A DNA stretch of 64,000 bases. It comes from Tubiluchus corallicola. Lineage: Eukaryota > Priapulida > Priapulimorpha > Priapulimorphida > Tubiluchidae. Shown piece after piece: positions 1-48,603 of the stretch; position 1 is the stretch's first letter, and each line of letters begins with the position of its first letter. The notes below the pieces were generated by a model. That model had not been told where the DNA came from. It saw nothing but the letters and a program-made list of their open reading frames with translations, and ran no database searches. Location of the stretch: contig JAQGDQ010000043.1 of the NCBI GenBank assembly GCA_030141605.1, positions 577,501-641,500 of the forward strand, given 5' to 3'. The position numbers were made by a program, and so were the translations under genes.

Positions 1-2594
1 AATCGGCTGAGCATCTTGACTTTCATCAAAGGAACATCCTTTTCAAGACAAGAAAATCCCAGCCCTCCCTTCTTCATTGGCATGTAGAAGAATGCATTCG
101 GGACATCCGTCGCCATATGAAGTATACGTTTTAGGCTTGATCTTATAAGCCTGTCTGCTCCCTTGAGGCCATTCATATGAACCTCACATATACGGAAGTG
201 GTATGTCAGACGCGGAATCACATATTGTCTGATCATATCCACCTTTTGTTGAGGTTTGAGTGGTGCCCCTTCCACTCTTATAAGCCATGGTTTAAGGGGC
301 TTGGTGTCCATGGTGGGTCGTCCCTTAGCAGTCATAGGAATTCCCAGGTATTTGTATGCATCACTGACTACCAGCATTGGAATAGGAGTCTGGCTGATCT
401 CCCATGTGGGTTCTATTAGCACTTTCATAGCCTTTCGCCGGTATGCCTTGACTAGTCTCATGGCTTTGCATTTGTTGGCGTTTAAAGCCATGCCTCGTTT
501 CGTGAAGAAGCCATTGGCTGTCTCCAACAAAACTCCCATGCCATGTTTTGAGCCTGACATTAGGACTAGGTCGTCAGCAAAACCAACTATAGCCACTTGG
601 TGCTCGTCAATCCCATAGCCAAATCGAGAACCGACTTTCGAGATCAGTTCGTCGATTACCAGGTTGAAAAGCAGGGGTGATAGCGGGCATCCCTGCTTAA
701 CACCTGATGTGATGCTAATACGGCGGGTATTTGCTTCCGGTATCGATATCCGTGTAGCAGCACCCGTATACATATCCCCAATGATTTGCTGAACCTGCTC
801 TGGAAGGCCGAACCTTCGCATTGCCCTCACGATCGAGGTGTGAGGAACCGTGTCAAACGCCTTTGCTAAGTCGAGGAATGCGATGTTTAATTCCCTATGA
901 CTTGCTCGGGCATGCCGAATCACGGTGTTTAGGAGAGTCAGGTTTTCGGAACAGCCGTCTCTTGGTTGGAAGGCTCTCTGGAGTGGGTTGAGCTTGACCG
1001 TTGCCTGGATTCTGGTGGTTAGAATCTTGGCATACCACCTGAGCAATAGGGATCCGATTGTGATAGGCCGCCAGTTACTGACGTCCTGCAAGCCCTCAGC
1101 AGACTTGGGGAGGAGGGTGGTACGGCATTCCTTCAGGCTGTTTGGGACCTTCTTTAGGAATTGCCATACCTTGAAAACAAGTGTTATCGCACCCTTGCTT
1201 ACCCTCCGGAGGGCTTGCATCGTGACCCCCCTATCCGGACCTGGAGACGAATTGGACTTCATGGCTTTGAATGTTTTTGCCACTTCCTCTTGTGCTATGG
1301 GAGCACAGAGGCTGTTTGGATCTTCACACGGTTTAAAGTCCTCGATGGGTTCGTCGTCTGGTAGGGAAGGTTTCTCGAATCTCTGGATGTACGTTTGCTC
1401 TATGCAGTCAATGGGAGGATACTTGACTTCCAGGGGTGCATCATCGAGTACGACATTCGCAAGCTTGCGTCTGTCTCTTTGATACAGTCTCTGGTACGTC
1501 TTATACCTTTCCCTCCTGCGTTTTTGGCAGTTAGCGGGTCGATCGGGAGCTCTCCTAACAGGACGAGGTCTGGCTGGTTGTGGACGGGCGTCCACCGGGA
1601 ACCATGCCTCACTCAGTGCCTGAAAGGCCCCATCCAAATCGCCACCTCCCAATGCAGCTCTAGCGAATGCCAGAGCCGCAACCATGTCACTACGATTTTG
1701 CATATTTCCAGTTTCTATATCCCTTTCGATACTTTCTCTAAGTGTGTCCCGGTTTGCCAGCTGTTCCTCACCAGGTTCCCGGCTTGCCCTCACACCGGGT
1801 TGTGGTCCATCAACTCGATGCTCTCTCCCTGCCATTTCGTTAACATTTACCTCGGCAGTTCTTAACCCATCTCTTAGAGTGCGGTAGCGTACAGACTTCC
1901 TCATTGTGGCTATGGCCCCAACTGTGCGGTGGGGCAGTTTCTCGTGGAGAAACATGTTGAGCCCCTTAACAGATGTTTCCCTTCCTAGGAACTCAAGTTC
2001 CTGTTCGGCCATTAGCCTCATTTCATCGTCCGTCCACAGGGTACCTGAACCACCTGCCCGTTTCTCCCTGGGTCCAGGGTGTGCACATCGACGATGCTGT
2101 TGGCATCCCGCACCTGCCCGTTTCTCCCTGGGTCCAGGGAGACTGCTGTTATATTTGGCAGGGTGTGCACATCGACGATGCTGTTGGCATCCCGCATGAG
2201 TGTTAAAGGTACGGGAGCATTCTGGACAGCTGTGTGCACCACCCTGAGGCGGTTCAGTCCCCTCGCTTGCCACACTCTGGGAGCAGTACCTGTAATGGGT
2301 ACTAGCACTCGAGTATGATGGCCACAGTTTTTCACACTTCATACATTCAAATTCCAGCCTATGGACGCCCAATCCATGGCTAAACTTCACGTGCGATTTC
2401 GCCGACTTCCAGTCGGGAATCGCCTTCCCACACACAGGACAGCGGTCGTTGACCTGCGCAGGATATTTGAGTATAATCCGTTTATCAGTATCGTTGTCCT
2501 TTAACGTACCATTAGTCGCCGTCGAGGTTTCTCGCGCAACCTCGCCGTTTCCCAAAACCAAGCCGGCTATATCATTATTGTTTTCTGTAACAGA
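1..2594 (-). CDS. R2-clade non-LTR retrotransposon polyprotein, 5' part, runs off the left edge
   Basis: One uninterrupted minus-strand frame of about 864 codons opens after a TAA at 2595-2597 and has no stop before base 1. In order it encodes a C2H2 finger (CPVCGKAIPDW...H...H, near 2445-2380), a CMKC half-finger, a second C2H2 finger (CPECSRTF...HRRCAHP) and a Myb-like segment starting TLWTDDEMRLMAEQELEFLG. Reverse transcriptase follows with NWRPITIGSL, FLDLAKAFDTVPH, SGVKQGCPLSPLLFNL and the catalytic GFADDLVLMS near 560-590. This order is that of R2-clade elements, which nick a specific site and prime reverse transcription on it; the restriction-like endonuclease would lie beyond base 1. 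The first in-frame ATG (2340-2342) lies inside the second finger, so translation probably starts without AUG, as is typical of R2. The second finger tail is duplicated in frame (2051-2195). The open frame suggests recent activity. R8-like identity is inferred from the 18S pieces upstream, not proven. Confidence 0.92.
2051..2195 (-). repeat. In-frame tandem duplication inside the R2-like zinc-finger region
   Basis: A 60-base unit at 2051-2110 is repeated at 2111-2195, where the second copy carries about 25 extra bases. On the minus strand both copies encode GCQQHRRCAHP followed by GPREKRAG, so the His-containing half of a C2H2 finger plus its basic linker occurs twice. The frame is kept. The near-identity of the copies points to a recent slip or unequal exchange. 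Confidence 0.85.
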
Positions 2595-2712
2595 TTAATA
2601 GTTCTACCATTTGGGGTTGTTAGCCCCTCATGGAGGGGTCCTATGCCGAGACCCAGCGGCTGGACAGTTTCTTCTCCTCCGCCCGACTGGGAGCCGGGCC
2701 GCCCTGAGGTAT

Positions 2713-2834
2713 GGTGCGTCTCCTTAGCCATTTGACGGTGGAATATGGCCGGTTGGCACCCTGTAAAGGGTAGGAGCACGACTTGCAACTCAGACTGGGG
2801 GGTTGCCCTCCCAACCTCCGGCCAGTCCGCAACC
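2713..2834 (-). ncRNA. HDV-like ribozyme module A (predicted), proximal to the ORF
   Basis: Read on the minus strand from 2834, segments occur in the HDV double-pseudoknot order. P1 is GGTTG; a J1/2 insert forms a hairpin GGACTGG/CCAGTCT with an inner GGTTG/CAACC stem. P2 is CTCCT, P3 is ACCC/GGGT with loop TTTACA, then P1' CAACC, P4 GGCCAT/ATGGCT, a GGCTA joining strand and P2' AGGAG. R2 elements are known to free their 5' end from rRNA with an HDV-like ribozyme. P1 is only 5 bp here, shorter than the usual 7, so cleavage activity is unproven. Confidence 0.55.
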
Positions 2835-2923
2835 TTTGTAAGCTTGTTACCCAGCAAGCTTAAGCCGTAAGTGGCATTACCCGTGGTGCACTTCCACTTT
2901 TGTTCTCGATACTTGGATGTTTC
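2835..2923 (-). repeat. Diverged 18S rRNA-like spacer between modules A and B
   Basis: On the minus strand, about 2896-2856 reads GGAAGTGCACCAC, then diverges, then ACGGCTTAA. It aligns to the universal 18S segment GGAAGGGCACCACCAGGAG...CGGCTTAA. This copy keeps the downstream end of the rRNA segment well, while the other copy (3072-3120) keeps the upstream end. Confidence 0.55.
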
Positions 2924-3064
2924 CCATGCGTCTCCTAAGCCACTTGGTTATAAAATGTGGCTGGTTGGCACCCTCGTAAGGATTAGGAGTACGGCTTGCT
3001 CGACAGTCTGTGAGGTTGCCCTCTCAACCTCCGCCTGGGACGAAATCAAAGCCAGACTGCAACC
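2924..3064 (-). ncRNA. HDV-like ribozyme module B (predicted)
   Basis: This is a homologous copy of module A, about 230 bases upstream of it. From 3064 on the minus strand: P1 GGTTG; J1/2 hairpin CAGTCTG/CAGACTG enclosing a perfect GAGGTTG/CAACCTC hairpin; P2 CTCCTAA; P3 CC/GG around TTACGA; P1' CAACC; P4 AGCCAC/GTGGCT; P2' TTAGGAG. Compared with A, a T-A pair becomes A-T in the J1/2 hairpin and a C-G pair becomes T-A in P4. Both are compensatory changes that support a conserved RNA fold. Confidence 0.58.
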
Positions 3065-3071
3065 TTTTACC

Positions 3072-3120
3072 CCGCAAGGTGCACTACTGGTGGTGCCCTT
3101 CCGTCAATTCCTTTAAATTT
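3072..3120 (-). repeat. 18S rRNA-derived segment in the retroelement leader
   Basis: On the minus strand this reads TTTAAAGGAATTGACGGAAG followed by GGCACCACCAGTAGTG. It matches the invariant small-subunit rRNA region used for universal primers with only a few differences over about 45 bases. Flanking bases (3121 onward and 3071 downward) do not match 18S, so this is not an rRNA gene. It lies directly 5' of module B, where an element inserted in 18S would have upstream host sequence. Confidence 0.85.
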
Positions 3121-3143
3121 AAGATTCACCCCCGGTCGAGGGT

Positions 3144-3259
3144 GACGTCCTACGTTAGCCTTCCGAGTAAAGTTGCCCGGTTGGGACCGCTGGGAGGTGT
3201 AGGCACGATTTTCCGACTCAAAGCTCATTAGTATAGCAACAAGTTCGACCTTTGCAACC
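3144..3259 (-). ncRNA. HDV-like ribozyme module C (predicted), outermost; probable 5' end of the R2-like element
   Basis: The most diverged copy. From 3259: P1 GGTTG; J1/2 hairpin CAAAG/CTTTG; P2 CCTAC; P3 ACC/GGT around TCCCAGC; P1' CAACC; GGGCAAC; joining strand GGCTAAC; P2' GTAGG. It shares TCGTGC, CCAACCGG and GGCTAA blocks with A. P4 is weak. Position 3259 abuts coding sequence of the upstream LINE, which fits an element whose RNA began at a self-cleaved 5' end. Confidence 0.42.
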
Positions 3260-3842
3260 AGGATTGCATTTCCAGTGTCTATTGAGACGAGAATTAAACT
3301 GGGCAGGATTGGAGGGTTGAACTACAGTGTCAGTCAGCGTGTTCCACTCATTAATTACTCGCCTTGCAAATGTGAATCTCCTACTCCACCTTTGGGGAAC
3401 TGTTCTCTTTTTGATTTTGTAGGAGAGACCTCTGGTACCATGATATGTCTCTCGATGGAAAAATATTTTGCTGTTGATGGTTTCTGTACCTTTTAAGGAT
3501 ACGAAATGTTTGGATTAAATGTTGTCTTTTGCGTCTGTACTTCAGAGTCGTAAGGCCCAGAATCTTAAGTATTGCAACATACGGTAAATGAGAAATAGCA
3601 GGTATAAGTCTGGTAGCTCAACGTTGTATACTTTCAATTTTCCTTATCATGTCTTGACGATGTGGGCTCCAAATCACATCACCATAATATAATATAGGAC
3701 GAACCATTGATTTATATAGCTTGGTCATCATAGCTCCATCATGATAAGAGAAACTACGTTTGATTAAAGCCAGTCTTCCATATGCTTTATTAACAACATT
3801 TATTATATGTTTGAAAATTAAGCATACTGTCGATTGTGATAC

Positions 3843-4661
3843 TCAGATCTTTTTCTTCTGTGACGCTTCTAATTTCTCTAGAACTTTATCCATATGCCAT
3901 TTTATCCATGTACGACCTGCAATATCATGCCTTCCAATAGTCAGGAGCTTACATTTTTCGGTGTTAAATTCCATTTGCCATTGGCGACACCATTGGTCAG
4001 CATAGTTAATATTATTCTGCATGACCTCAAAATCATCCAGGCAGCATGCTTTTCCATATATTTTAGTGTCATCTGCAAACAGACTTTTACCGCAGTTGAA
4101 AACTTCAGGAAGATCATTTATGTAAATAGTAAATAAAATAGGGCCAAGCGCACTTCCCTGTGGTATATTGCTGGTCACATTTGCCCATTCTGATTCTTGC
4201 CCATTGACTACTACACATTGCCTTCTCTTACAAAGAAAACTATTAATCCATGTTAGCAGGTGACCAGAAATTGCGTATGATTCAAGTTTTTGAAGCAGTC
4301 TCAGATGGGGTACTTGATCAAGTGCTGTTAAAAAATTGTAATAGATAACATCAACTTCAACTTTATTATCAAGTAAATCCATCCATTCTTCAAAAGAAAC
4401 TAATAGATTAGTAATACAAGATCTGCCAGTTCTGAAGCCATGTTGACTATCACAAATGAGATTATGCTCAGTAATGAAGTTGTAGATTTTATCCCTTAGT
4501 ATTCCTTCTAGCAATTTACAAACAACTGATGTCAGACTGATAGGTCTGTAATTTTTTGCTAAGTCTCTTTCACCTTTCTTGTGGATAGCAGAAACTCTGG
4601 CCATTTTCCAATTCGGTGGTAATATACCACTGGATAAACTTTGGTTCATTATTTGCAACAT
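3843..4661 (-). pseudogene. LINE reverse transcriptase fragment, 272 residues, inactive
   Basis: The longest open piece of the LINE. It covers fingers to palm: ARVSAIHKKGERDLAKNYRP, QHGFRTGRSCITNLL, QGSALGPILFTIYINDLPEV and FADDTKIY are clear. The motif that normally reads DFSKAFD is NFLTALD, so the first metal-binding Asp is lost. An in-frame stop replaces the link to the C-terminal domain at 3843. Confidence 0.85.
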
Positions 4662-5254
4662 TGGTCTTACATACTTGCATGGATTCCATCAGGCCCATAG
4701 ATTTGTTAGCCTTCATTTTTTTAACTTTTATACTAAGTTCTAATTCACCGATGCTACATACATCAAGTTTATACTCAGTTACTGGTAGTAGTTAAGGAAT
4801 TTGGCTTGTATCTTCGTTTGTGTAAACAGATGTGAAAACATTCTGTAATTCATTAGCCTTTTCTTGATCAGTAGTGGCAATACTACCATCTTCTCTTTTT
4901 AAGGGTCTTGCTCTTTCTTTTTTCATTAAGTTAGAATTTACATATGCACAGAATGCTTTAGGATTACTACCACATTACTACCACATTATTTCATTATTAA
5001 ACCACTTTGGTTTTGGACTGTTGCCTTGATTTTGCACTGGTACATACAGATCTGTTACTATACGCAGTGTTTCTTCCAATGCCCTGTTGCAGGCAAATAA
5101 ATCTTTATCTTGAAAAATTACATCACAGTGTTTTGAATTTAAGTAGTTTCTTATAGCTGTATGATCTGCTCTGTAAAAGTTATATTTCTTATAATTAGTA
5201 ATTTTTACTTCCCAGCAAACTTCGATGCTACATGATATAACTAAGTGGTCACTT

Positions 5255-6001
5255 TTACCAATTGGTGAATGTGACTGCAGGTTTGATACAATTATTAACA
5301 ATCAATAAGTCTAGTAAAGTAGGATTCTGGCCAACCCTATATCTAGTTGGAAGAGTTACTAGCTGCTCCATATATCCATCGCGTAGAGTGTCCAAAAATT
5401 TGTTCTCTAAACTAATTTCTGGTGTAGAAGCACTCCATGTACTCCAATTTATTTTACTAAAATTGAAATCTCCACACACAACCTTCAGTTTTTCTTTTCT
5501 TCTGTCTAACTGTACCAGCAATCTCAACAGGTTTTCATTTTCCTTATGACCAGATGATGGACTTCGGTATACGCTTCCGAGCAAAACTTCTTTGCCATAT
5601 AGCAGAAAAATCTTAGCCCACAATGAAGAAGTGAAAATATTTGATAAGTGCATAACTTGGATCGGTGCCAAATTAGATCTCACGTAAAGGACGATGCCTC
5701 TTCCATCCAAATTGCTGAACATATATTCTGGCAGGATCAATTCAGAGTGTTGCAAAGAATATCTAACATTTTTCGGATTCATCTCAGACAAGAAGATCAT
5801 GTCAGGTTTTAATTCTAGTAATCTTATTTTAATGTCATGCATTTTATTTGTTAAGCAGTCAACATTTGTAAACAACAGTTTTACATTTTTATTATGATTT
5901 AGTTTTCTTGATGAGCCATAGTTGTACTTTTTACTGTTTTGTTTATCTGAACCGGTTTTTACACTGTCTTTCACTTTTAATTTTGCAGTATTAGTACACA
6001 C
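5255..6001 (-). pseudogene. LINE apurinic-like endonuclease fragment
   Basis: 248 residues with an exonuclease-endonuclease-phosphatase layout: LLFTNVDCLTNKMHDIKIRL near the N-terminus, a DMIFLSEMN motif, GSVYRSPSSG, and the catalytic-type VVCGDFNFSKINWSTW. It ends in LLDLLIVNN, and the following SDHLVISCSIEV block lies in the next frame (5301-4978), showing a frameshift. Confidence 0.82.
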
Positions 6002-6318
6002 ACACTGTTATTAGAACTATTTACAGATGAGTGACTAGTGTTCACATGTCACTTTTTCTTGGCAACCACTAATTTTAAGCGAGTTAATAGTGGTGTTAAA
6101 TACTGGTCTGTCATTCCCGTGATAATTGAGGTTTTATTACTAGGACTGGTAATAGTTTGTTGTAGCTGTTGATTTAGTTCAGATAGCAAGCAGATTTTAG
6201 GTGACGTCTTTTTATTTGATCCTGCATCACTATCATCTTCAAGTAATTGTTCTGGAGCGTCAAGTTCACTTATGACAGATTCTGTATCATTATACCTTAA
6301 GCAAATGTTGGAATCGCC

Positions 6319-11500: not shown

Positions 11501-14500
11501 TTGCATTTTTCGTGACTAGGTTCTGGATTGGCAAAAATAGCAGAAGGTGACGCAGCACTTCTTTCGCAGGAATTAGTTGAGGTATTCTTTGGTTTCTAAC
11601 TACCTTTAGGATGGTCATTCACATTTTGAATTATGATCATTTTTATTAACTTAGCCATTTTTTGCTAGTGTCACAGATAACACTGCAACAGTGCCGTCTA
11701 TTTAACTGAATAATTTTTTACCCTTGTTGGTTATGAGAGGAAATTGATTGTTTCTTTGGCTATGTTAGTACAGGATGGACATATCTGTGAAAATCCTGTG
11801 AGAAGAATACAGATAAGTTCATAATTACATGGAAAACTGATTACAGTTACATGATTACATAATCTGGCACTGATATTACACACACAGATGAAACTGTGGA
11901 AAATTGTATCTCTGTTCTGTTATCAAAATAGATTGGATATTTGCCAGATTGTTCTATTTATTAATTTAAAATACTGATAGCATCAGGTACCACATAGAAA
12001 GAAAACTTGATTAATCTCTTATCTGTGGAAAATTGTTTCCCTGCTAATTACAATCTGCTTTGCTTCAGGAAAAAAAATCAGTGGGCACTGCCTATCATTA
12101 GCAAATTATATACACTGGAGTTTTTGACGGAAATTCTCTTTCAGATTGTTGTACTATTGAATGCATGTATCAGTATTTTCGTATTTTCATTTAGGGACCA
12201 CCTGATATAACACCTGCTGATGAAACAAAGTGGCAACGTGGACAGCTTTACCAGGCTCACATTAAAGCAAGAGATGGTAATTCACTATTGATATCATATA
12301 AAAACTGAATGCAGAGTATACTCAGGGCCACTCTACTACTAAGCAAACTAGGCACTTGCCTAGGGTGTCATATTCTGGAACTAAAGCATAAGTAATAACA
12401 TAATGTATGCGTAATTGCTTAAAGCACAAGAAAACCCTTCATAAACATAAAGCTTACAAAATTCGTCTTGAAATTTTATATCACTTACATACTGCCTTTT
12501 TCAATACAGTACTTTGATCGGCAGTAACGCTGTATAAAACATGCAAATTTAAACTCCCGCAATGACCGTTAGATGCAGACATTTTAACGACAGGTCATTT
12601 GAAACAAGTTTAGATAACATTGTGTAAACTTTGAAAAATAATCAGAGCATTTGTAGCACACACGTCACTAACTAAATAAAATTCTAAATTACTGTATCTT
12701 GTCAATAAGATTAAAAATACGTTTTTGGTTAGTAAGTGGTGCACAGTGGTCCTGAATTTAATTTAAAATGAAATCAACGCGAGGTGTAGATAAATAATTA
12801 ACTACAGTTAATTAAATCTCTATAATATACGTATAAGTCTGTTGCACAGGTATCATATTTATTACAAATAAGAAGAATTCAGTTTTGTGGGTTGGGTGCA
12901 CAGGGATGTTGTGGAAGGGATTGACAGTTGAGGAGGGGGTTTAGTGCCCTTTTGCCTAGGGCGTCAAACTACCTAGAGCCGGCCCTTGGTACAGTACATG
13001 TAGTTACATCATTCTAATAGAAATACTGACTTATAATCAAGTTATAGGAGGGATGTACCCAAACCAATGTAAATCATAGGAATTATGTCACATGATTTCG
13101 TGCGATCAACATTGATTAAATTTTATGAAGTACAAATATCAGATAACGAGAATATATATGTATATGGCAAATATAGAAACAGTAATGCAGTAGTATACTA
13201 GTCATCCAGTAACAATATATAGCCACGTATGACAATCAATTTGACAATGCAGAGTGTCTCTAAATCATTAGTATGATGTCAGTGTGTTACTGGCTTTCTA
13301 ACATGCTATTGGTTTCGGAGAGTATTTTTCAAGTCCTGATACATTGAATTTAACCTGCTATTGCTTCTGACTTACTCAGCAAGATCCGAGTTTCATTTAT
13401 GGTGGAATTGAGATCATATTGCCCAACCATGAAATGAGTAAATACTAAGAAATTCACCACAGTAACGTGTTATTAGAGCACATAAGTGCTCGAGTGCCAG
13501 AGCTCTTGTATATAACTGGATTGATCCACAACCCTTACCTAAGCTTTATATTAAAAATAATTTCAGTGTCATTAAATGGCTGGGTATTGTAACACAAGTT
13601 TAATATGCATTAAGCAGTTACTTTGCAGTTAAAAACACACCTGTATAATGTTTTAATTTTTTTAGCTATTGTCGATATATTGGCAATGGACATGGATGTT
13701 TCTACAAAAGCAGCATCAAGACCACTGCAGAAAAGAACTAGATACGGTTCAGGATCAGAAGGCGATGTTGAATTCAGTAGTATTGATTCTGGAATGGAGT
13801 TAGACATGGAAATCAGCTGTGCTAACAATCTGAGCAGTCAGGCATCATTATGTGTGCAGCCAGTGAATACGTGTATTACTTCTAGTTCAGAAACCATGCA
13901 AAAGTCAGGTCTTTCGTCACTGGGTCTTGCAAAGAAGACAGTGGAACACGAAACAAAGCCATCAGAGAGTGAAATTTGTAAAAGAAGTCAAAGTGATTTA
14001 AATGCTGATTATAAAAATAAAGGTCGATACCAGACCAGAAGTTCAGCTTCACCACTGGTGGCACTGCCTGTTGAAGCTAACCGTGTTTTGAGGGTTTGCA
14101 TAAAAAAACTCATGTTAGATGATTCGTTGAATCATAATCCACAGTTCACTTCGATTAGCAATCCCTTTAGTAAGGAAAGCAAACATGTTGAAGCAAAAGG
14201 AAATGTTCCTGCGTTAGATATAAAATGCAAAATAGCAAAAGAAAAATCATTTGTTTTTAATCAGTCAGCAACTGAGAAGTTAATTAGCATCTCTGAGAAT
14301 GTACACATTGGGAATGTAGAAACATCCCTACCACATGTTGGAAAGTCAAAGGACAGTTGTGATTTACTTGTAAACAGTAGTAAAGACAGTCAACAGTTGT
14401 CACTTAATAATGAGCTGCCACTTTCTGTACCCAGTTATGACTCATTAAGCTGTTGTAATGAATCTGACAGGAACCTTAATACGGGCAGAAGTGCTCATTC

Positions 14501-17285
14501 GAATGCAAAATTCTACATGAGTCTTGATAAGGGAGCAAAAAACTTGAGAGGTTATGCAGAAGAATCTGTCAATGAACCCGCAAAATCGTTAAACTGTTCT
14601 TCTGATTTCAGGACAGATAGTGTCTCTGAAACTGGTGCTCAGTGCAATGTAACATTCTGTGTGGATACCAGTGGGGGGAAAAGTGATCCAGAATCATGTA
14701 CACCTAGCACTGAGTCTGTAAAACTGTTAAGCTGTACTTCTGATTCTGAGGACGATTTAATCACTAATACACAGTCACATAGTTCTGATTCCAAGGATGA
14801 GTGTTTGTCTGACACTCGTACATTGTGCAACGTAGCACTCTGTGTAGACACCGAAGAATGTGAGAAGAAGTTTAAGTCAGTAAGTGACATAGAAGCATCA
14901 CCTTCTTCCTCACCTATCACTGAATCAGTAAAACTGTTAAGCTGCACTTCTGATTCTGAGGACAATTGTATCTGTAATATTAATACACTGTCTTACATTT
15001 CTGATTCAAAAGATGACTGTACTTCTGACACTATTACTCCGTCCACTGCAATTGCCTGTGGTACAACAAGTAAAAGAAGGAAAGGGTCAGCAAATGACGC
15101 AAAAACTTCTGCTGTTTCTGTCAGTCAGTCAGAGCATCTTGGTTTTCCACATTTACTTGGTAACTCTATTAAATGTGGTGCTGACCAATCCACGCCTAGT
15201 TTAAGTAAGACATTTGTCATAAATCCTGCAAAAGTTTTATGCACCTACCAAAACGATGGTTCTGAAAGTGCAATCCAAGAATGCTCAAAAGTACCAGATA
15301 CAGATACGGATGAGAATTTATGTAGCTATTCTCAAAGAAATGAATTTTTTGACAACTTCATCAAGATGTCTAACTTAGAAAGTCCATATATGGAAGGTAG
15401 TAAATCAAGCAAAAACTCCTCCCATGGTAAATGTGAAAATTTGGTAAATTCAAGTGGTGTTGTAGGTGGTTTCCAAAAGTGTGATATCTCTTTCGAAAAT
15501 GTAGCACAAGAAGAACTGGGAATGCTGAATAAAGTGGTTAGTAATAAGTCTTATGGAAGTCAAGATACTACACTTCATATAGATGAAAAAATAGTTCAGT
15601 TAGAGCCATCAAAAGATTTATTAGATTTTCAGCCACATAGGCCGTTGAAACCAGACAAGTCAGGCATACATGAAATGTTACTTCGTTTATCACCTTTTTT
15701 TGCGCTATCTTTTTTGCCGTCTACTTCACAACTGGAAGCTAATTATGCATTCAATTTTATCAGTGCAGGAATCGAAAACTTGGAAAAATTATCATTATCA
15801 GATGAAGCCAAGAGTGCAAAGAGTGATGTTTTACAAAAATGTTACATCATTTTAAGGGACATAAAAAATAGTTTAAAAAATAATGAACAGTTTGAAAGTG
15901 CAAACAGAATCGTGAAAAGTGAAATAAAGGTCGATCCAGATGAAAACTACGACAATGTGCATAATTGGAATTATATTAAAAATGAATTGGATGGAAAAAC
16001 TGACAAGCCAAAAACAGTGGACCATTGCGACAAATCTTTGAAATATATAAAAAGTGAAATAGAAGTTAGTGCTAAAACAAGTATTTTTGGAAAGATTACT
16101 CCATTAGATGAAACAGCAAATCCAGATAAACCAAAATTAAAAAGTTTTACAATGCAAGATAATTACAGGGTTACTAGAAGTCAAAGTAAAAACACGAAAC
16201 AGGATACTGAAAGTCTCAGAAACAATGAAAGGGAAGGTAGTCTAACAAAAAGTGGCAAGCACGGTTTTCTGAAGAAAGAAAAGGAAAATAATGAGAAGCT
16301 GGGAAATTCGACAGAATTAAAGCAAGATGCAAAGAATCGATATTTTCTTAGGCAGCTGACATCGCGTAAGACTATAAATTATTCTTCGGTGGTAACTAAA
16401 AAGCCTTCATGTCTGCCACTAAAGGGACCTTCAGAAAGTCATTATAACTTGAGACATTCTAGAGTGCAACAACAAGCATCAAAAAGCCTCAACGATCTTA
16501 ATTACTCGTTATTTCCAAGCAAGCAGGTCCAAACTACAACAGTAAGTAACAACAACAATCCTACATCCGTACCCCGTCAATGTCACTTTGTTGGTGCGTG
16601 GTCTAATGAGTCAGCTGAAACACACCCGCGTGTGTCAAAAAACCAAAAACACTTGTTTTCTTCAAGAAATATGGCAAGTTATAAGACAAAAGGAGAAACT
16701 GTTCTCCAGATTAACAATGATACCAATACATGGGTTGATAAGAGTGCATATCACTATAGCAAGAGTAGTGATAATAAAATTAACGAAAGAAGTAACACAA
16801 AAAAGCAAACTAAAGCTAAGAAAAATTCTGTTGGTAAGAATAGGTATCCAGATGTCTGCATTGCTGAAGACACAGATATCTTTTCTGAAGACACAGACAT
16901 ACGAATAAATTCACCACCTGGTTTGAGCTTATCACATGTACATATGCCTGCCATAATCTTTAAAGGTAATCCTCGTAATGCGCATTTGACAAACGTTAAG
17001 GTTGAACCTGACTTATTAGAGACATTGCAGACATCAGATGTCTCATCAGATGTTTTCAAAGCAGAAAAAAACTATAAAATAAACTGTATATCTCTAGAAG
17101 AACGGGTTGATTGTTGGTCAAAGCAACATTCCAGAAATACTAGGAAGAGGAAAAACACAAAAGATACAAATAGAAATATGCAGAGAAGCAAGAGATTCAA
17201 GTGCAGTACACCAAGAGCTAGAAAGTTTCATGAGACACTTGGAATTAGCATTTCTAGTATAGGCAGTGATGGGGATGCAGATTAA
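7606..17285 (+). CDS. Unrecognised large nuclear-type protein gene, 3' five exons (5' end not found)
   Basis: Exons in consistent phase: 7606-7656 (ESDVVDLETFSIEEDY), 9500-9556 (SLRKVTKPMTFGKAFSF), 11520-11581 (GSGLAKIAEGDAALLSQELV), 12195-12276 (PDITPADETKWQRGQLYQAH) and a 3,620-base last exon 13666-17285. All junctions have AG/GT and restore frame. The last exon encodes about 1,205 residues, rich in Ser, Asp, Lys and Asn. It has a degenerate repeat containing ESVKLLSCTSDSED and SDSKDEC (about 14700-15040), one hydrophobic helical stretch (LLRLSPFFALSFLPSTSQL, about 15680) and a basic, NLS-like tail (TRKRKNTKDTNRNMQRSKRF). I do not recognise the family. The low-complexity last exon contrasts with the compact, more conserved-looking small exons. 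Nuclear location is inferred only from the basic tail. An ATG exon upstream must exist but is not identified. Confidence 0.72.
7700..7743. repeat. (TA)n microsatellite left of pogo-like element
   Basis: Uninterrupted TA dinucleotides lie immediately left of the terminal repeat at 7745. A second TA tract follows the right end (8556-8592). Elements of this type insert at TA, so insertion into an existing TA tract is likely. Confidence 0.9.
7745..8555. mobile_element. Non-autonomous pogo/Tigger-like DNA element in intron
   Basis: Terminal inverted repeats CAATCAAACCTCGTTATA (left) and, reversed, CAGTCAAACCTCGTTATAAC (right) bound 811 bases flanked by TA tracts. CAGTCAAACCTCGTTATAAC-type ends are characteristic of pogo/Tigger relatives of Tc1-mariner. 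No transposase frame is visible inside, so the copy is non-autonomous or an internal deletion. It lies in the intron after exon 7606-7656. Confidence 0.75.
9000..9278. repeat. CT-rich polypyrimidine tract
   Basis: Long runs of CTCTCT and CCCTCCCTCC with a short ATA-rich break near 9120-9148. It is a simple repeat inside the intron before exon 9500-9556. Confidence 0.9.
9787..9850. mobile_element. Left end of a hAT-like element (right end not found)
   Basis: CAGGGCCGGCTCGAGATAG has the same terminus as the hAT-like elements at 12323, 28482 and 47507. I found no matching GGCCCTG end downstream, so it is either truncated or decayed. Confidence 0.4.
10195..10545. repeat. Dispersed repeat, single-core copy
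   Basis: The order of blocks (TGTTCTTTGTGTACATATG, ACAGCACACAGAAATGCTT, TTTTAATAACTTTAGTATAA, GTTGTGGAACGCATGAGAAC, GTGCAACACATGCCTAATAT, GCAGGTCTGTC) is the same as at 30030-30725. The two loci are therefore copies of one unidentified repeat family. This copy has one core unit; the other has three. Confidence 0.7.
12323..12988. mobile_element. Decayed hAT-like non-autonomous element
   Basis: The left end CAGGGCCACTCTACTAC and the reversed right end CAAGGGCCGGCTCTAGG match the hAT-like ends seen elsewhere here. Both ends carry a GCCTAGGGTGTCA-type subterminal block. No 8-base target duplication is preserved. It sits in the intron before the last exon of the unrecognised gene. Confidence 0.6.
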
Positions 17286-30029: not shown

Positions 30030-30725
30030 TAGTTCAACATGTTTTATACACGTATGTAAATATGTTCTTTTGTACACATGAAAAAGCTCGATAGCACCCA
30101 AAAGTGCTTAATTTTCAATAACTGTTAAAACTCTTTAGTGTAATATACATCGAGACTCATGAACGTTACTGTATGTAGTGCACTACTAAAAATGTTGTGG
30201 TTTGTGCTAATGTCAAGTGTTTTGAAAACCTGCTTGTGAAGTTGCGGAATGTGTAAGAACTGAAATTTGATGCGTGTGACCGTGTAAGATTTAAAATGCG
30301 TGCTTAATTTTCAATAACTGTTAGAACCCTTTAGTGTAATATACCTCGAGACTCATGAACGTTACTGTGTGTAGTGCACTACTAAAAATGTTGTGGTTTG
30401 TGCTAATGTCAAGTGTTTTGAAAACCTGCTTGTGAAGTTGCGGAATGTGTAAGAACTGAAATTTGATGCGTGTGACCGTGTAAGATTTAAAATGCGTGCT
30501 TAATTTTCAATAACTGTTAAAACCCTTTAGTGTAATATACATCGAGACTCATGAACGTTACTGTATGTAGTGCACTACTAAAAATGTTGTGGTTTGTGCT
30601 AATGTCAAGTGTTTTGAAAACCTGCTTGTGAAGTTGCGGAATGTGTAAGAACTGAAATTGGATGCGTGTGACCGTGTAAGATTTAAAATGTGTGCGACAC
30701 GCGCCTAATGTGTGAGAGTTGACAG
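30030..30725. repeat. Dispersed repeat with core triplicated at 196-base period
   Basis: The block beginning TGCTTAATTTTCAATAACTG starts at 30105, 30301 and 30497, an exact 196-base period. The units are almost identical (a few substitutions, such as AAAACTC/GAACCC near the start). Flanking blocks (TATGTTCTTTTGTACACATG on the left, GTGCGACACGCGCCTAATGT and GACAGGTCTG on the right) match the copy at 10195-10545, so the triplication happened within an older dispersed element. Confidence 0.9.
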
Positions 30726-48536: not shown

Positions 48537-48603
48537 GAATATGGTAGCCCAGCTTCTGCCTTGTAAGCAAAAAGGCCCTGGTTCAAATCCAGGCTGTATT
48601 CCA
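48537..48603 (+). tRNA. tRNA-Thr(UGU)-like gene with shortened D arm
   Basis: GAATATGG pairs with CTGTATTC to form the acceptor end (two G-U). A five-base T stem CCTGG/CCAGG carries loop TTCAAAT, and the anticodon loop CTTGTAA gives UGU. B-box GGTTCAAATCC is nearly canonical, and an A-box-like TAGCCCAGC and a T8 terminator follow/precede it as in a pol III gene. The D arm is about 8 bases short, and the anticodon stem has one mismatch. This may be a pseudogene or tRNA-derived repeat, but the acceptor pairing is intact. Confidence 0.45.

Follow-up and report, generated by a model that had tools for sequence, protein, structure and literature searches.

Why does a retrotransposon lodged in a LINE carry at its head a series of related RNA modules alternating with pieces of 18S rRNA? 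The question arises from a 64,000-nt stretch of the Tubiluchus corallicola genome (hereafter the window), in which an earlier note had described three modules in the leader of an R2-clade element, each drawable as an HDV-like ribozyme, and had read them as a sign of an 18S-targeting, R8-like ancestor or of a multi-ribozyme 5′ UTR. According to the available text of PMC3774820, HDV-like ribozymes free RNA with a defined 5′ end in other non-LTR elements, and R2 cleavage up to 36 nt inside the rRNA is on record. The model of Eickbush, Burke and Eickbush (2013; their Figure 8) has rRNA duplications at the junction lengthening the 5′ end of the element (PMC3774820). We therefore asked which of the modules look like ribozymes, where the copies of the element begin and end, and what the 18S pieces record.

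The element and its insertion site

The retrotransposon runs in from the window edge and lies within the 3′ part of a LINE on the same strand (Table 1). Its ORF matched RVT_1 in Pfam (E 3.6e-35), and its top PDB matches were R2 proteins: 9nl2 (2.4e-103), R2Tg 9dou (2.9e-100) and 8gh6 (7.2e-75), the last of which we take to be an R2Bm-type R2 protein. The motifs CPVC, CMKC and CPEC, read by eye as zinc-finger-like, lie N-terminal to the reverse transcriptase; Pfam called no zinc finger in the ORF. An R2-type reverse transcriptase with N-terminal zinc fingers (the fingers by eye, the affiliation from database matches) places the element in the R2 superclade, and the RVT_1 and PDB matches bear out the R2-clade assignment made earlier. 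Where the third zinc finger ends, ~28 codons are duplicated in tandem and in frame (window 2100-2200, minus strand; CQQHRRCAHP...GPREKRAG twice); genome copy C1461 apparently has this unit once, as judged from overlapping target ranges.

Table 1. Annotated features of the leader, its element and the adjoining LINE (window positions).
Feature	Position	Strand	Description
R2-superclade retrotransposon, 5′ part	1-3259	-	leader and ORF
Element ORF	3..2594	-	864 aa, open up to window edge; reverse transcriptase and three zinc-finger-like motifs (by eye)
Rest of 5′ leader	2595..2716	-	
Module A	2717..2834	-	HDV-type fold retained (P1, P2, P4, C in J4/2); non-canonical L3
Spacer B-A	2835..2928	-	eroded 18S relic; like tail of the sole spacer in two-module copies
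Module B	2929..3064	-	A-like HDV-type fold; non-canonical L3
Spacer C-B	3065..3145	-	18S match 3126-3072; opens with a second copy of the CTGAAACTT-like letters that close the 18S start of C
Module C	3146..3259	-	HDV-type module, predicted cleavage before G3259
18S-derived start of module C	3241..3259	-	GGTTGCAAAGGTCGAACTT vs 18S GGTTGCAAAGCTGAAACTT; carries P1 5′ strand and one J1/2 hairpin arm
Module C P1	3259-3255/3183-3179	-	GGTTG / CAACC
Module C J1/2 hairpin	3219..3254	-	arms 3254-3247 / 3226-3219
Module C P2	3207-3199/3153-3146	-	CGU(g)CCUAC / GUAGGACG
Module C P3	3198-3196/3188-3186	-	ACC / GGU
Module C L3	3195-3189	-	UCCCAGC
Module C P1.1	3178-3177	-	GG
Module C P4	3172-3169/3163-3160	-	
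Module C putative catalytic C	3158	-	by analogy with HDV; within GCUAA before P2
LINE, endonuclease / RT type	3260..6007	-	same strand as element; element sits within its 3′ part

Relatives were sought across 343.5 Mb of the genome (2344 contigs); copy counts are lower bounds, since the searches score best candidates only and pass over very common words. Three uninterrupted copies of the LINE site were found elsewhere in the genome, and all three run from GCAATCCT directly into their own sequence past the window junction.

Module C has the order and letters of an HDV-like ribozyme

The three related minus-strand modules described earlier were recovered, with the bounds now given in Table 1. 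In module C, P1, P2, P3, P1.1 and P4 form a nested double pseudoknot in HDV order; P1 has five pairs, followed by a C.C at the sixth place, and the catalytic L3 (U..G, with CC for P1.1) and the C in J4/2 are both present. In the available text of PMC3774820, P1 mismatches are given as a likely cause of weak ribozymes. Module C was already known when a strict HDV descriptor was drawn up; across both strands of the window this descriptor matched once, at module C, and it had no match in 2.56 Mb of first-order Markov sequence (20 replicates).

Among ten C-type modules from the genomic copies, UCC stands at the canonical L3 start in nine (the exception is C1844), G at the sixth L3 place in seven, and C in J4/2 in nine, the last count being by eye. 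P1.1 GG is replaced by AG in some of them, and the P1 letters are GGTTA in C1461, GTTTG in C86 and C918, and CGTTG in C1696. C-type modules fetched later have, by eye, UCC in C1710 and C1570 and UCU in C918. On these letters, module C is a candidate HDV-like ribozyme, with C-type copies that are not uniformly canonical.

The covariance-model match that the earlier note had proposed as a check was not obtained at threshold. In 2500-3500 the only HDV-type Rfam match was drz-agam-1, at 14.5 bits (E 8) against a gathering score of 37, and neither the window nor any of the 12 relative loci tried had an Rfam HDV family at its gathering score; at L092, L093, L094 and L074, no HDV-type family appeared up to E 10. 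The best HDV-type score, HDV-F-prausnitzii at a sub-threshold 29.5 bits, came from copy C387 (L008) through an adjacent GGUCGG/CGACC P1. In that copy (L008:1403-1475), the 3′ strand of P1 is now CGACC beside GGUCGG, giving a compact HDV-type fold and possibly a relocated cleavage site. A start of C387 at such a site was considered and set aside: its likeness to other copies runs ~7 nt further upstream, and its start may be a truncation.

Complete copies begin at one base, in unrelated places outside 18S

Nine independent copies have complete 5′ ends: C1248 (the window copy), C1461, C2055, C86, C1696, C1864, C1844, C918 and C1710. All nine begin, to about one nucleotide, at the base homologous to G3259 (GGTTGC), which is the predicted cleavage base of C, as judged by the onset of likeness between copies; in C1844 and C1864, the letters before GGTTGC are readable as element or as 18S, and the start is uncertain by one to four nt. 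Their flanks are unrelated, with 1-7 of the last 15 letters agreeing in all 36 pairs, and the empty-site comparison covers the window junction alone among the nine. C1710 and C1570 were counted as one event because their flanks are shared (92% over 576 nt, including ~78 nt upstream).

Another 13 leader copies are cut short or have an internal start, a count that excludes two further A-module matches, C1394 and C1865. They begin in C (C1409a, C260, C387), in B (C2049, C1822, C1782), in the B-A spacer (C1409b, C974, C1536, C1860) or in A (C2110, C623, C2030), and none begins at G1 of B or A.

At the other end of the element, 3′ ends were examined at 13 loci; L014, L016 and L019, whose sequence diverges or breaks off short of the 3′ end, are not among them. 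A/T-rich tails are present at all 13 loci, and by eye the DNA past the tail is not 18S in 12 of them; L020 shows only tail repeats past its 3′ end, and L021 and L022 are identical, flanks included. When tails and flanks were compared with the 18S reference L079 by blast, just two weak matches (E 0.11) appeared. Between copies, tail identity reaches 100% over 1162 nt, and the family has thus been mobile recently. Neither the 5′ nor the 3′ flanks of the examined copies are 18S, as insertion of the R8 kind would have them. The whole-genome 18S search, which skips very common words, did not return the host rDNA, and copies may reside there as well.

The three modules are related and share a pairing scheme

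Modules B and A share the element order of C, with P2 formed by CGU(n)CUCCU and AGGAGACG, and are 77.6% alike over 107 nt. We tallied 32 modules, ten C-type and 22 A/B-type, the 5′ part being absent from three A/B-type ones; both modules of C1782, module A of C387 and module B of C1409a stayed outside for want of the end motif. P2 was paired in 246 of 256 cells, whereas 2000 shuffles of its 3′ strand averaged 214 and never exceeded 237, and four of its eight pairs are doubly compensated between C-type and A/B-type, the contrast in pairing arising mainly because these two types differ. Within the ten C-type cores, 94.7% of 150 cells of P2, P3 and P4 are paired versus 29-43% when the strands are slid, and a change on both sides occurs in just one of 15 pairs, so that these cores alone are weak evidence of covariation. 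Compensatory changes are seen in P2, P4 and the J1/2 hairpin, and all tallies rest on few inherited changes. The P2 and hairpin pairing, together with the folds, bears out the HDV order and the J1/2 hairpin insert proposed earlier.

A covariance model (R1) built from the ten C-type cores only was run on 14 sources at E<=1. It recovered its training cores and ten A/B-type modules, namely nine of the 13 A-type modules counted in these sources and one of the seven B-type modules; the best untrained A/B match reached 36 bits (E 7e-7, L070) and module A of the window 21.1 bits (E 0.0044). Untrained C-type modules of C1710, C1570 and C918 scored 71, 43 and 31 bits. Module B of the window was not found at E<=1, which, with the single B-type module recovered, weakens the link between C and B; this link rests on the likeness of B to A and on P2 compensation.

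Modules A and B keep the fold and lose the canonical L3

Modules A and B lack the catalytic L3: UCC occupies its canonical place in none of the 22 A/B-type modules. G stands at the sixth L3 place in 10 of 22, and C in J4/2 in 19 of 22 (J4/2 by eye). Keeping most of the HDV fold without this loop, they would probably not cut, and we predict from these letters that they are probably non-cutting, decayed or repurposed copies. The earlier picture of three serial ribozymes thus more likely reduces to one, C, with its canonical L3 and its match to real 5′ ends.

Serial activity of all three modules, yielding RNAs with alternative 5′ ends, seems improbable to us. A/B-type modules mostly do retain P1, P2, P4 and the J4/2 C, and in module B, where UCC is found two places after P2, giving up inner P2 pairs would allow L3 to be redrawn in a shifted position. 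The loss of canonical-place UCC throughout the A/B-type set argues against it, as does the finding that none of the 13 truncated leader copies examined starts at the first base of B or A.

The fold itself appears maintained in A/B-type modules despite the lost L3. P4 changes from CCAC/GUGG to CCAU/AUGG, and the J1/2 hairpin, by eye, from AGUCUG/CAGACU to GGACUG/CAGUCU; hairpin pairing in the A modules of C1248, C1461 and C1536 was likewise read by eye. Such retention, along with the weak P1 and the sub-threshold Rfam scores, is what one would expect if the modules were purely structural leader RNA, serving protein binding or translation initiation, with C non-cleaving and a promoter start setting the 5′ end. 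We give this reading a small chance: module C of the window retains the L3, P1.1 and J4/2 letters, and the copies begin at the HDV-type cleavage base, as may be compared with the Drosophila R2, R4, L1 and RTE ribozymes in the available text of PMC3774820.

Tentatively, and with more doubt than confidence, A and B could be former ribozymes kept for a non-catalytic role of their fold (e.g., ribosome entry or binding of an element protein), in a unit-replacement ratchet that lengthens the leader. If this ratchet were true, ribozyme units captured at the 18S junction would take over cutting, the old unit would stay as a structural part, and the leader would grow. The family also raises the question of whether a ribozyme fold that no longer cuts is retained for some other function.

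The start of module C and the spacer behind it match consecutive stretches of 18S

As the 18S reference we used L079 (SSU_rRNA_eukarya, 958.7 bits), which comes from another eukaryote than the host; its SSU stretch reads GTATGGTTGCAAAGCTGAAACTTAAAGGAATTGACGG and onward. The 18S spacers claimed earlier proved unequal. The C-B spacer is clear: among the loci compared, window 3126-3072 matches 18S with 87% identity along 55 nt (E 9e-14), and the whole-genome search gave 90% identity along 49 nt, with E 1.7e-10. The B-A spacer is much more eroded: its direct match is 75% over 36 nt (E 0.97, in copy C1461), and its main ties to 18S are its resemblance to the C-B spacer (E 0.001) and the place it occupies.

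Nor is the 18S likeness confined to spacers, as the earlier note had it, for the first 19 nt of module C, from GGTTGC on, match 18S at 16 of 19 places in the window and at 15-17 of 19 in nine rows with a full start, representing eight insertion events. A/B-type starts agree at 7-9 of 19 places in 18 of 19 rows, with little likeness past GGTTGC. Within 18S, the stretch matched by the C start directly precedes the one matched by the C-B spacer, and the spacer resumes at the duplicated CTGAAACTT (in the window, CTTAAATTT) and continues through AAAGGAATTGACGGAAGGGCACCACC; the core of C is thus flanked by this short duplicate. Being consecutive in 18S, the two pieces appear to represent both flanks of a single 18S site, separated by the remainder of C. 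We also considered whether the spacers are simply long target-site duplications that separate complete elements in tandem, and set this aside: no element 3′ end is seen between C and B.

The 18S-derived J1/2 arm CAAAGCTG pairs with an element arm at 7 of 8 pairs in the window. Across nine rows, 70 of 72 cells of this hairpin are paired and three pairs are doubly compensated, a value reached in 2 of 2000 shuffles with arms picked by eye; C918 is outside both the hairpin and the 19-nt tallies. A second GTATGGTTGCAA-like start is visible in C-type J1/2, clearest in C1696, and is the trace that the junction duplications in the account of Eickbush et al. (PMC3774820) would leave. With a 19-nt start that matches 18S and hairpin arms that co-vary, module C looks like an 18S/element junction ribozyme, comparable to those of R2s that cleave inside 28S.

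Could the likeness of the C start to 18S be chance or a later acquisition, the modules having been duplicated as a satellite-like leader repeat? The 19-nt match is short, with a lone blast E of 0.02 to 3.4, and A/B-type starts share little of it. It falls, however, exactly where the continuing 18S stretch of the spacer predicts and recurs in divergent subfamilies, and we regard this alternative as very improbable.

Proposed history of the leader

Taken together, we favor, at a probability of about three in four, module C as the 5′-processing HDV-like ribozyme of a now non-site-specific R2-superclade element that arose from an 18S-targeting (R8-like) ancestor, with A and B as older relatives of C. 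The R8-like ancestor put forward earlier is thereby retained as an inference, set against examined copy ends that are not in 18S.

In that ancestor, the ribozyme would have spanned the 18S/element junction, 18S GGTTGCAAAGCTGAAACTT supplying the P1 5′ strand and one J1/2 arm. The co-transcript would have been cut inside 18S just before GGTTGC, the new RNA taking the 18S piece along, and once the family left the rDNA, this piece would have become fixed within the element. Today, C would trim a read-through transcript, here perhaps that of the same-strand LINE, before G3259, giving RNA with a defined 5′ end. B and A may have been left inside the leader as new ribozyme/18S units arrived upstream, units later being exchanged or duplicated. 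A second module could have been gained when, within one 18S copy, a ribozyme unit lying upstream was joined to an element further downstream. Leader structure fits the published model of R2 5′-end growth, as far as the available text of PMC3774820 sets it out.

Copies carry one to four modules

The alternating 18S/module structure predicted earlier for other genomic copies was found, with one to four modules. C1710 and C1570, a single event, have one; C86, C1696, C1864, C1844 and C918 have two; C1248, C1461 and C2055 have three, as does C1409a with A cut; C260 has four. C387 has modules C and A with a mixed spacer.

In two-module copies, the tail of the spacer is like the B-A spacer; these copies and the three-module ones alike end in an A-type module. 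Module B is A-like with an A-type P2, and the older spacer comes after it. A crossover between module ends would give the two- and three-module arrangements, and the extra joint of C260 falls in a GGCT common to spacer and module end, which is what recombination or template switching would leave. Variation in module number therefore looks partly like the product of recombination or template switching, and repeated retention of upstream 18S sequence, as proposed earlier, would not be the sole route. The one-module state may be either ancestral or a deletion. L092 and L093 hold single-module copies with shared flanks, cut off within the N-terminal part of the ORF and perhaps carried by another repeat.

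Leaders alone can move, as indicated by C1409a (L004:1468-1948), a leader-only insertion of C, B and part of A with an 18-nt direct repeat on its flanks.

Comparison with known elements

The leader resembles that of R2, as described in the available text of PMC3774820, in its HDV-like fold at the 5′ end, the rRNA that gives the P1 5′ strand and the variable J1/2. It differs from that account in involving 18S rather than 28S, in copies seen outside rDNA, and in having from one to four modules interleaved with downstream 18S sequence.

R2A elements carry three zinc fingers. Hydra R8 is 18S-specific and nested in R2A (PMC5035012, in the text available), and the present element shares with it the 18S association, the R2 superclade and three zinc-finger-like motifs (here by eye). 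Unlike R8, its copies lie outside 18S, and the likening is by description rather than by sequence or exact target. R8 is among the elements used in PMC3774820, and an 18S-containing P1 may therefore already be on record in that study.

R2NS families and cockroach R2-like elements are likewise R2 relatives without site specificity (PMC5035012, PMC7650587); a tandem ribozyme leader with fossil rRNA is absent from the accounts of them available from these sources. Trypanosomatid SIDER2 has two tandem HDV-type (Pr77) signatures at its 5′ end (PMC4035085), and at least two such signatures stand at the 5′ end here. In contrast to the R2-like reverse transcriptase of the present element, SIDER2 is short and of the L1Tc/ingi clade, and rRNA spacers go unmentioned in the available text of PMC4035085.

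Leader-only C1409a invites one more comparison. SIDEs are R2 copies in 28S that retain the R2 3′ end. C1409a ends inside module A and thus differs from them, sharing with R2 SIDEs the form of a short ribozyme-carrying copy (PMC3774820, PMC3414825, in the text available). Among the literature matches listed, covering titles and abstract openings, none described an R2-type element in which HDV-like modules stand in tandem with 18S spacers.

The leader looks like a record of the element's former home and of growth at its front end. In the proposed growth of R2 5′ ends by kept rRNA, the trace would soon be erased; here it seems still readable after departure from rDNA, as 18S letters fixed and co-varying in ribozyme stems and as one to four stacked units. 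The 5′-growth model, and the survival of an element after loss of its target site, become directly testable within one genome.

Other features of the window

Three features lie further along. An open frame of 1223 codons at 13614-17285 (plus strand) matched nothing in Pfam-A (E 0.001) or the PDB (E 0.01). A 196-bp tandem unit is present at 30104-30695 in three near-identical copies (97% matches). At 48538-48601 (plus strand), an Rfam tRNA match of 36.9 bits, without an ARAGORN call, perhaps marks a tRNA-derived repeat.
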